IMG/VR virus record: IMGVR_UViG_3300027712_000159
Location: 1-22,674 of that record
Direction: 5' to 3' (one strand)
DNA: 22,674 nt
DNA from: a virus
Under the pieces are notes generated by a model. It worked only from the letters and a program-made list of their open reading frames with translations, ran no database searches and was not told where the DNA came from. Below are positions 20,145 through 22,106 of this stretch, piece by piece. The position numbers and the translations under genes are program-made. Every line of letters starts with the position of its first letter. The first letter of the stretch is position 1.

Positions 20145-21062
20145 TCAAAAGTCATTTAAAACTCTCCAGGCTGTTGCGGCACAGAGTGGCACTTGTCCAT
20201 TTCCAATGGCTTTAAGTCTGTCCACTCTAGAGGCCACCCCATTAACCACTCGACCCACGTTGGGTTCAGAAGCCCACTGTTGCGGTCTACCGATTGACTC
20301 AGCATAATTTGTTTGCCAATTTTGATTCGTCTTTGTATTGACGGATTGCTCATGTTGCCCCTGTCCCGATTGTCCGATGCTTGCGGGGTCGGAAACCAAA
20401 GAACTACCGTCCCTAATCCTGGCGAATCCCTCTTGAACTCCGATGGGCTGCCTTTTTCGTTGGAATTGTGGCAAGTTGGTGTAGGCCATTTGTTGGCTAA
20501 CATTTTTTTCATTTTTGCTTTTCCATTCGTTCCCCCGTTGCCTGGTAGACAAGGTGTAGGCCAAAGTTCTTTGTTTTCCGACAATCCAGATTCTGTCCCT
20601 CTGATGGTTTGCTCCAACGTCCGCTGCTCCCAACACTCCCCATCTCGCATCAAACCCCATTGAGGCCAAGTCTCCGAGAACTCGTCCAAGTCCCCTAGAA
20701 GTGAGCATTGGTGAGTTTTCCACGAACACAAACTTGGGTCGTACTTCGTAAATGATCCTCGCCATTTGTCCCCACATTCCGCTTCGTTCTCCATCAATAC
20801 CTGCGCCTCGCCCTGCGGCTGAGATGTCTTGGCATGGAAATCCTCCAGATACGACATCAACAATTCCTCGCCACGGGTTTCCGTCAAAGGTTTGTACGTC
20901 ATCCCAAATCGGGAAAGGCGGGAGAAGTCCGTCATTTTGTCGGGCGCACAATACGCTTGCTGGGTATTGCTCCCATTCGACTGCACAGACTGTTCTCCAA
21001 CCAAGGAGGTGTCCACCAAGTATTCCTCCACCAGCGCCTGCGAAAAGAGCCAACTCATTCAT
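20145..21062 (-). CDS. DNA (cytosine-5) methyltransferase
   Basis: 305 residues starting in an ATGA overlap with the upstream gene. The C5-methyltransferase motifs are in order: I (LFAGAGGGILGG, 6-17, AdoMet site), II (VEWEQY, 28-33), IV (GGFPCQDIS, 73-81, catalytic Cys77), VI (VFVENSPML, 112-120, Glu115), VIII (HQRDRIW, 153-159) and X (LKAIGNGQVP, 283-292). Between VIII and X, where the target-recognition domain should lie, is a hydrophilic Q/N/R/S-rich stretch (about 163-265) that looks unlike a folded TRD. The enzyme probably methylates phage or host cytosines, giving protection from restriction; no partner restriction enzyme is nearby. A second long frame runs through the same DNA. Confidence 0.92.
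   Translation of the reverse strand: MNELALFAGAGGGILGGHLLGWRTVCAVEWEQYPASVLCARQNDGLLPPFPIWDDVQTFDGNPWRGIVDVVSGGFPCQDISAAGRGAGIDGERSGMWGQMARIIYEVRPKFVFVENSPMLTSRGLGRVLGDLASMGFDARWGVLGAADVGANHQRDRIWIVGKQRTLAYTLSTRQRGNEWKSKNEKNVSQQMAYTNLPQFQRKRQPIGVQEGFARIRDGSSLVSDPASIGQSGQGQHEQSVNTKTNQNWQTNYAESIGRPQQWASEPNVGRVVNGVASRVDRLKAIGNGQVPLCAATAWRVLNDF
20156..20857 (-). CDS. Candidate overlapping gene nested in the methyltransferase (WPTP-family protein)
   Basis: A 233-residue frame from the ATG at 20857, in the +1 frame of the methyltransferase and ending 11 bases before its stop. GAGGA lies 7 bases before this ATG. The frame is open further, to 21058, so about 300 codons have no stop. The product has MSYLEDFHAKTSQPQGEAQ, then YDPSLCSWKTHQCSLLGDL, ETWPQWGLMRDGECWE, WPTP at 99-102 and 124-127 plus FPTP at 155-158, and near the end LNPTWVEWLMGWPLEWTDLK. 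I recall predicted phage and bacterial proteins with this same series of motifs. Because several of these motifs are the alternative-frame image of methyltransferase motifs IV, VI, VIII and X, similarity alone does not prove translation. Function unknown. Confidence 0.5.
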   Translation of the reverse strand: MSYLEDFHAKTSQPQGEAQVLMENEAECGDKWRGSFTKYDPSLCSWKTHQCSLLGDLDEFSETWPQWGLMRDGECWEQRTLEQTIRGTESGLSENKELWPTPCLPGNGGTNGKAKMKKMLANKWPTPTCHNSNEKGSPSEFKRDSPGLGTVVLWFPTPQASDNRDRGNMSNPSIQRRIKIGKQIMLSQSVDRNSGLLNPTWVEWLMGWPLEWTDLKPLEMDKCHSVPQQPGEF

Positions 21063-21454
21063 GTTCTCCCACCATATTGTTTTTTTAATTCGGCTAATTT
21101 AGCCAACGCTTCCTGTTTCACCCGTTCGCTCTCAATCTGCTCATGAATGGTCATTTTTCGTTCAATCATCGGAACTTGTTTGACAGGAATAAATGGGCCT
21201 TGATTGCACAAATTCCTAAACTTAATTGCGCTTGGCACAAACTCACCATCTAACTTTGAAATGGCGTAATCCATGCTTGGGCGATATGTTAAAAAACCTT
21301 TAAGCTGATGCGCCCACTCCTGGCGAATCAAACTGTGGTCAACACCCTCCCAATGTCTGAGAAATGCCGCACCATAAATTGCGCTCATGCGGCCAAAGAT
21401 GTAATCCAAGCCTTGCTCAACTTCGCAAAAATCAGTTTCCGAGTAGTTTGACAT
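21059..21454 (-). CDS. Replication partner protein, lambda P / helicase-loader-like
   Basis: 131 residues from the ATG at 21454, chosen for a strong GGAGG 8 bases upstream; an earlier in-frame ATG at 21499 lacks this. The core (QGLDYIFGRMSAIYGAAFLR, HWEGVDHSLIRQEWAHQLKG, then SMDYAISKLDGEFVPSAIKF, RNLCNQ) follows the pattern of the Phage_lambda_P-type domain: a helix with aromatic residues, W-x-x-xL, and 'PxxxxFxxLC'. The C-terminal part is a charged helix ending QYGGRT. It lies directly after the O-like gene (overlap 23 bases), as P follows O in lambda. The role would be to load the host DnaB helicase. The assignment is moderate. Confidence 0.55.
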   Translation of the reverse strand: MSNYSETDFCEVEQGLDYIFGRMSAIYGAAFLRHWEGVDHSLIRQEWAHQLKGFLTYRPSMDYAISKLDGEFVPSAIKFRNLCNQGPFIPVKQVPMIERKMTIHEQIESERVKQEALAKLAELKKQYGGRT

Positions 21455-22106
21455 TGCCCTGTCCTCCAAGTAAGCCACGAGTAAGACCTGACAAAACATT
21501 AGCGTTCCGTTGGCCAGTTTTGGTTAAATTGCGTTCATCAGGTTTAATCCAGTCGGCTTGTAAGCCTTGCGAGCCTCTAGCGCACCAAATACTTAAAAAG
21601 TCGCTGAACTCCATGTTTGCCTTGGCAGCTTCTTTTCTTGCGCTGTTTACAACTGTTTCGGTCACAGGTGCTTTTTTGGCTTTGCGTAACTGTTTCCAGT
21701 CATCCCAAATTTGTTGGTCAACATCAGGAGGGCAAGCAACGCTAGTTGCGTTCTTCTCTCTCTTTGTCTCTGTCTCTAACTCTGTCTCTGTCTCTCTCTC
21801 TGGTAGATCAACTTGATATCCTTTTGATATCTTATTGATATCATCTTGTTCCAGCCAATGAGACAGCTTGATAATGATTTCTTTAGTTTTCAATTCAGTC
21901 AATCTGAGTCGAAAAGCAAGAGTTTTGTTGTCAGGGATTCGACCCTCGTTCTCACTAGCTATTAACCAAAGCATAACTAGCACTTTGGCGGCCAAGGGGT
22001 CTAATTCATGCCACTCAAGGTCATCAAGAATGTCACGATACAGCTTCACCCAAGGAGGCCGCCTGTCCTTGAAGTGCTGAAACTTTGTCCAATTTTTAAT
22101 ACGCAT
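21432..22106 (-). CDS. Phage replication protein (lambda O-like initiator)
   Basis: 224 residues. The N-terminal ~105 residues (MRIKNWTKFQHFKDRRPPWV, KLYRDILDDLEWHELDPLAA, LVMLWLIASENEGRIPD, LAFRLRLTELKTKEIIIKLS) form a winged-helix DNA-binding type domain known from phage O-like initiators. An acidic ETETELETETKREK linker (about 112-126) is followed by a helical region (IWDDWKQLRKAKKAPVTETV; FLSIWCARGSQGLQADWIKP) found in the same group. Three TTGATATC repeats and a polypurine tract lie inside the gene, as lambda's origin lies in O. There is no ribosome site close to the ATG; AGGTG lies 22 bases upstream across a hairpin, so start control appears structural. Confidence 0.75.
   Translation of the reverse strand: MRIKNWTKFQHFKDRRPPWVKLYRDILDDLEWHELDPLAAKVLVMLWLIASENEGRIPDNKTLAFRLRLTELKTKEIIIKLSHWLEQDDINKISKGYQVDLPERETETELETETKREKNATSVACPPDVDQQIWDDWKQLRKAKKAPVTETVVNSARKEAAKANMEFSDFLSIWCARGSQGLQADWIKPDERNLTKTGQRNANVLSGLTRGLLGGQGNVKLLGN
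21751..21801 (-). other. Polypurine/polypyrimidine tract inside the replication gene
   Basis: About 50 bases, nearly pure pyrimidine on the plus strand (purine on the coding strand), built from GAGACA/GAGAGA-like units and encoding the ETETELETETKREK linker. It directly adjoins the TTGATATC repeats. Such asymmetric tracts occur beside lambda's origin iterons and can unwind or form triplex DNA; a slippage-prone linker is the plainer explanation. Confidence 0.6.
21813..21842. repeat. Three exact TTGATATC direct repeats, 11-bp period (candidate iterons)
   Basis: TTGATATC occurs at 21813-21820, 21824-21831 and 21835-21842, each start exactly 11 bp after the last, so all lie on one helix face. 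Each contains the palindrome GATATC. Because 11 is not a multiple of 3, the repeats fall in different reading phases and are not explained by a protein repeat. They sit mid-way in the O-like gene, the place of lambda's origin. They may be binding sites for the initiator. Confidence 0.65.

Follow-up and report, generated by a model that had tools for sequence, protein, structure and literature searches.

Two overlapping frames of a phage cytosine methyltransferase gene as the likely subunits of one enzyme

When a long open frame lies inside another gene on the same strand, the question arises whether it codes at all and, if so, for what. This question is posed by a phage fragment of 22,674 nucleotides (IMG/VR record IMGVR_UViG_3300027712_000159, positions 1 to 22,674; hereafter the window), which encodes a P22-like coat protein, an SU10-type adaptor and a Cro-like repressor alongside a C5 cytosine methyltransferase of 305 amino acids (alpha; 20145..21062, on the minus strand, as are all features described below). 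Within the methyltransferase gene the +1 frame has no stop between 21058 and 20156, a run of 300 codons that was already noted in a first-pass annotation of the sequence. Here the nested frame, termed beta, is found to be a real conserved gene and not a shadow, and the most probable explanation (roughly 0.87) is that alpha and beta are the two chains of one C5 methyltransferase, encoded in overlapping frames and dividing their labour much as in M.EcoHK31I. Prokaryotes offer few long same-strand overlaps with demonstrable selection on both frames, and most claims of them are contested; in this family hundreds of copies permit a frame-by-frame test, and constraint is traded between the frames along the gene.

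Both frames code and are under selection

The second frame is present in 80 IMG/VR loci retrieved with the nested protein, but these and the GTDB sample were chosen by beta and are biased toward open beta frames, so that loci were also fetched by methyltransferase similarity alone, giving 73 distinct intact genes free of that bias. The +1 frame of each was scanned for stops from codon 1 to about eight codons before the end, and the expectation was obtained by permuting synonymous codons within each gene. All 73 genes lack a stop, whereas about 404 stops are expected (37 in the first 65 codons, 202 in codons 66-169, 77 in the variable region and 88 in the end region); over the N-terminal stretch of beta, none is seen against about 239 expected. 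By contrast, the +1 frame of ordinary C5 methyltransferase genes (n = 38) contains 20 stops at the median and 8 at the least, and the difference between the two kinds of gene is also visible inside single genomes (twelve loci). In the beta-selected GTDB sample of bacteria and archaea, each of the 79 loci that have all four profile blocks has an open beta frame, and 72 of them have both frames open; in IMG/VR both frames are open in 152 of 159 loci.

Silent and non-silent changes were counted for each frame over 31 independent pairs of 80-98.5% identity. Calculated as simple proportions and not with a full codon model, and with absolute values that may be affected by phage recombination, the ratio of non-synonymous to synonymous change (dN/dS) in alpha is 0.16 for codons 2-65, 0.19 for codons 66-164, 0.98 for codons 165-261 (confidence interval, CI, 0.86-1.10) and 0.12 for codons 262-297, while the ratio for beta is 0.75 in the 5' region, 0.64 in the middle, 0.32 in the variable region (CI 0.25-0.40) and 0.15 at the end. 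Flanking genes of similar pairs, scored as if they carried a +1 gene, gave 0.82. From these region-wise values it follows that the stretch of alpha between motifs VIII and X evolves neutrally, as a passenger, exactly where beta is constrained, and that both frames are constrained around motifs IX and X. Over the catalytic domain alpha dominates, and the constraint on beta is visible there as stop avoidance and fewer synonymous changes: the synonymous rate in the conserved regions of alpha is 0.16-0.28, compared with a 2- to 3-fold higher 0.51-0.64 in flanking genes, and over the N-terminal part of beta it is 0.21-0.28, where the flanking genes of those pairs again give 0.51-0.64. The first-pass annotation had, on a rough estimate, considered the frame improbably long for chance, had favoured coding in it between motifs VIII and X, and had proposed frame-specific selection as the check; all of this holds, with synonymous change in alpha reduced and purifying selection acting in the +1 frame.

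Where the second frame starts

Beta probably spans 20156..21058 (300 codons), starting at an ATG 4 nt past the alpha ATG. The ATG at this position is kept in all 84 loci that have Asn at the corresponding alpha codon, and the Asn is encoded by AAT in every one of them, though AAT makes up 46% of Asn codons. A Shine-Dalgarno match precedes the 21058-type ATG in 67 of 80 loci; in the window the Shine-Dalgarno-like GGGAG (21066..21070) lies 3 nt 5' of the alpha ATG and 7 nt 5' of the beta ATG. The position of the alpha start codon varies among relatives, and where alpha starts further upstream a Shine-Dalgarno sequence (AAGGAG) is found inside the alpha codons at a spacing that fits the beta ATG (14 of 23 such loci).

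The first-pass annotation had instead placed the start at an internal ATG at 20857, giving 233 codons. This ATG and the GAGGA upstream of it are present, as are the WPTP/WPTP/FPTP motifs and the LNPTWVEWLMGWP that it had reported, but the methionine is not conserved, with ATG in only 32 of 92 relatives, and since the ATG at 21058 and its Shine-Dalgarno sequence are better kept, 20857 was rejected as the main start of beta. A variant in which most beta is nevertheless a product of 233 amino acids initiated near 20857, the upstream part being untranslated, is improbable, although of the competing explanations it survives best: the upstream GAGGA is kept, the TTG codons at alpha codons 66-67 are conserved, and the 5' part is interrupted by stops in distant relatives, L274 and L275 among them, so that their beta must start inside alpha. 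The long N-terminus accordingly belongs to the clade of the window and its kin, and in this clade the 5' part contains none of the 37 stops expected and its synonymous codons are strongly fixed.

Positions 21056-21062 read ATGAATG, in which the TGA that terminates an upstream open reading frame (21059..21499) sits between the alpha and beta ATGs. This arrangement suggests translational coupling.

An enzyme divided between two chains

Alpha matches PF00145 (E 6.4e-32, residues 4-218) and phrog_363 (E 2.3e-67), and its AlphaFold2 (AF2) model superposes on M.HhaI with a VIA-align Z of 21.8 and a root-mean-square deviation of 2.6 over 189 residues. Motifs I, IV, VI, VIII and X are recognisable. 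The catalytic domain with motifs I-VIII (residues 1-165; 20568..21062) is modelled with a predicted local distance difference test score (pLDDT) above 90 across most of its length. Overall the model is confident at residues 1-167 and 287-304 and disordered between, and it lacks a small domain. The linker (residues 166-262; 20277..20567), where the alpha frame is neutral, has a mean pLDDT mostly of 36-53. Motif X (AIGNGQVP; 20187..20210) shares the frame of motifs I-VIII in the window, and alpha is in sum a large chain with motifs I-VIII and X and without motif IX.

Beta can be divided into an N-terminal part lying over the catalytic domain of alpha (residues 1-165, MSWLFSQAL ... SETWPQWGLMRDGECWE; 20564..21058), three cassettes and a motif IX-like block. 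Cassette 1 (WPTPCLPGNGG...) lies at 20489..20563, cassette 2 (WPTPTCHNSNEKG...) at 20396..20488 and cassette 3 (FPTPQASDNRDRGNMSNPS...) at 20270..20395. Across the loci this variable region comprises 0-4 tandem modules with a median of 38 amino acids. The modules are shuffled and exchanged, a given family taking a different place in the order from one locus to another: the family of cassette 2 (family 4) is found in 11 loci at three ordinal positions, and that of cassette 3 (family 1) in 18 loci at four. The cassettes are predicted to be target-recognition modules that would set specificity. The block that follows, LNPTWVEWLMGWPLEWT (20219..20269), falls in the end region, where the beta ratio is 0.15.

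The identity of beta was approached through profiles. Scans of beta against Pfam and NCBIfam gave nothing usable, and a PDB profile search returned only a marginal match to 3nng (E 0.017) on a short SETWPxWG stretch; in none of these proteins does PF00145 extend into the C-terminal half. However, phrog_1008 matches the beta of the window (E 4.7e-31 and 1.8e-29, the former over profile positions 12-282 of 329), Diva gp50, ArV1 067b and, with E 1.3e-57, residues 194-390 of WillSterrel gp71. The last is a single-chain methyltransferase whose residues 1-157 correspond to PF00145 and which, after motif VIII and in the same frame, continues with PTP modules, a LNPAFPEWMMGWP block and motif X, at the place of the target-recognition domain (TRD) and motifs IX and X. 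The IX-like block aligns with single-frame IX-X C-termini (hhalign E 3.5e-19), and these in turn align with canonical IX-X, LNPDWVEWLMGWPIGW over LTPRECARLMGYPDSF (hhalign E 4.9e-5), so that through a two-step profile chain the second chain would be the one that carries motif IX. Judged by these profiles, the C-terminal half of beta and the TRD-IX-X part of a single-chain methyltransferase are homologues.

The same half is found in either frame. In six loci (L243, L249, L256, L005, L008 and L171) the alpha frame ends after motif VIII and the beta frame has the cassettes, IX and X; in L243, L249 and L256 motif X is in the beta frame and not in the alpha frame. The actinophages ArV1, KHumphrey and GigiOuiOui show a similar division, with an alpha frame that goes no further than VIII and a second frame that encodes modules, IX and X. 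The layouts of L243, L249, L256 and the actinophages indicate that the TRD-IX-X half shifts between frames in evolution. Residues 166-280 of beta look like an old methyltransferase part, the TRD-IX of single-chain enzymes. The suggestion of the first-pass annotation that the family was born by overprinting can apply at most to the first ~165 residues, which are seen only atop the catalytic domain, as fits such an origin; for the rest the relation is the converse, the alpha linker being overprinted on the beta modules. Two single-chain actinophage methyltransferases (L002:2480-2761 and L178:2462-2662) have TRD and IX in the alpha frame, with a +1 copy of the beta N-terminal part still recognisable.

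What the first-pass annotation had treated as a separate nested gene is thus most likely, on the strength of these comparisons, the missing target-recognition and motif IX half of the same enzyme. Alpha would supply the S-adenosylmethionine-binding and catalytic core (motifs I-VIII) together with motif X, and beta, read in the +1 frame from the ATG 4 nt 3' of that of alpha, would supply target recognition through its tandem WPTP cassettes and motif IX. Both starts would be used from one ribosome-binding region, and the two chains would bind to form a single enzyme, whose methylation of the phage genome would conceal it from host restriction. No restriction enzyme adjoining the methyltransferase was recognised in the window, which, in the light of phage biology, makes protection of phage DNA the likely role.

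Several observations weigh against this reading. The IX-like block alone is only weakly similar to canonical motif IX (E 0.034), and a hidden Markov model search of ordinary methyltransferases with the block returned no significant match, so that its homology to motif IX is argued from the two-step profile link, phrog_1008 and position. AF2 models beta alone poorly (pLDDT 59, predicted template modelling score 0.26), as would be expected of a dependent subunit. The beta ratios in the 5' and middle regions are only modestly below the control of 0.82. The comparison with M.EcoHK31I, with I-VIII and X in the large chain and IX in the small one, is one of layout. Finally, in L016/L103, L032/L146, L088, L196, L236 and L242 a single in-frame stop interrupts alpha in the neutral linker while beta is open; these could be sequencing errors, decay or split alpha chains, in which last case motif X would need its own start.

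That beta is a real overlapping gene with a separate function outside the methyltransferase, for example in anti-restriction or regulation, is considered quite unlikely. Its first 165 residues match nothing known outside the alpha context, which would suit such a function, and the alpha-beta complex is deduced from sequence; but the C-terminal half has its homologues in the TRD-IX-X of single-chain methyltransferases, alpha has lost those parts and retains a neutral, disordered linker, and stand-alone copies of beta away from any alpha frame, for which the first-pass annotation had suggested searching, were sought and not found among the loci examined. Slightly less probable still is that programmed frameshifting or slippage fuses the two frames into one chain. 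The actinophage layout, with alpha stopping after VIII and TRD-IX-X in the +1 frame, would lend itself to this, as would a poly-G tract able to slip in some loci, but beta has its own conserved ATG with a Shine-Dalgarno sequence, its coding and selection cover the whole catalytic domain, which a shift 3' of VIII does not need, and the window has no poly-G tract at that place. A frame open merely through composition and conserved methyltransferase codons, the "database shadow" that the first-pass annotation had entertained because conserved alpha motifs, read in +1, yield several of the beta motifs, is refuted by the missing stops, the lowered synonymous rates, the neutrality of alpha where beta is conserved and the many stops in ordinary C5 genes.

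Known systems and distribution

M.EcoHK31I is a two-polypeptide C5 methyltransferase that recognises YGGCCR. Its small chain was reportedly found by Lee, Kam and Shaw in 1995 to be encoded within the large-chain gene, in a different frame. The multispecific phage C5 methyltransferases SPR and Phi3T are single chains with tandem TRDs; the family of the window, whose variable region has tandem, interchangeable modules of ~38 amino acids that may likewise act as TRDs, would resemble them in this respect but has two chains where they have one. In M.EcoHK31I the large chain carries I-VIII, X and a predicted TRD, and the small chain motif IX (PMC3404938), whereas in the window the TRD-like cassettes are selected in beta and their alpha counterpart is neutral and disordered. 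Measured against that published, not strict, prediction of a TRD in the large chain, the window enzyme is a variant and not a member of the M.EcoHK31I type. Further differences from the description of M.EcoHK31I are that beta starts 4 nt after alpha, spans nearly the whole alpha gene and has tandem cassettes; none of the matches in E. coli genomes could be tied to M.EcoHK31I. M.AquI has IX and X in its second chain. The window differs from it in the near-complete overlap of the two genes and in having X in the alpha frame; a closer likeness to M.AquI is seen in L243, L249, L256 and the actinophage loci, where the second chain includes X as well. The hidden HNH endonuclease of the ShiLan element, an inserted homing element in a mycobacteriophage methylase (PMC11855218), likewise occupies a second frame within a phage methylase gene, but beta matches no nuclease and is no inserted element.

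The first-pass annotation had linked the nested product to a wider family, and this is borne out by phrog_1008 and by the loci themselves: judged by profile blocks, 243 of 259 fetched viral, plasmid and bacterial loci have alpha and beta in successive frames, a set that includes some duplicates fetched twice. Searches with beta (tblastn) matched 105 phage and 6 plasmid records, at least 599 IMG/VR stretches and 150 GTDB candidate stretches. A C5 methyltransferase scoring above the Pfam cut-off occurs in 57 of 185 genomes sampled from one class, and beta in 5 of the 185 (the query genome included); the overlapping alpha/beta type is a distinct subclass and not a property of all C5 genes. The two-frame arrangement was already known but rarely noticed, and proves to be widespread. 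In Paenibacillus phage Diva (gp49/gp50), gp50 is annotated as nested in a cytosine methyltransferase, though it differs from the beta of the window in its N-terminal part and starts further inside. The profile family phrog_1008 ("DNA methyltransferase", PHROGs v4) includes beta-type proteins, but its name is silent on their +1-frame location in the methyltransferase and on the half of the enzyme that they represent.

A broader proposal, towards which we lean with clearly less confidence, is that these loci form a very widespread phage and prophage class of C5 methyltransferase with almost fully overlapping genes and dual initiation 4 nt apart, in which beta would carry exchangeable specificity cassettes, alpha would be a neutral passenger there, and specificity would be swapped by recombination that needs only an open alpha frame. 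On the two-chain reading itself, many single "DNA cytosine methyltransferase" annotations would encode half an enzyme, prediction of specificity from the annotated protein would look at a neutral linker, and recoded cloning of the annotated frame would destroy the second subunit. M.EcoHK31I, an isolated biochemical curiosity, would be tied to a large phage family.

Some further features were observed among the relatives. In an E. coli prophage copy (L169:4001-4762) the methyltransferase frame is interrupted by an internal stop, and the annotation calls it a pseudogene. Another subtype of the nested subunit (EQLTLF...KMTVTSGQK...CYLTWK...), which starts internally, occurs at L006:2216-2917, L176:2069-2917, L274 and L276, and is annotated in phage Diva as "g49 internal gene". 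Many relatives (L019, L033, L035, L063, L070, L087, L115, L028, L040 and L244) have a poly-G tract of 8-15 G just past motif IV, whose length throws both frames out of register at L028:3000, L040:3000 and L244:3246. Runs of at least 8 G or C number 10 in 83 kb of alpha genes, compared with 5 in 354 kb of flanks, and from their sequence the poly-G tracts look like sites of phase variation.
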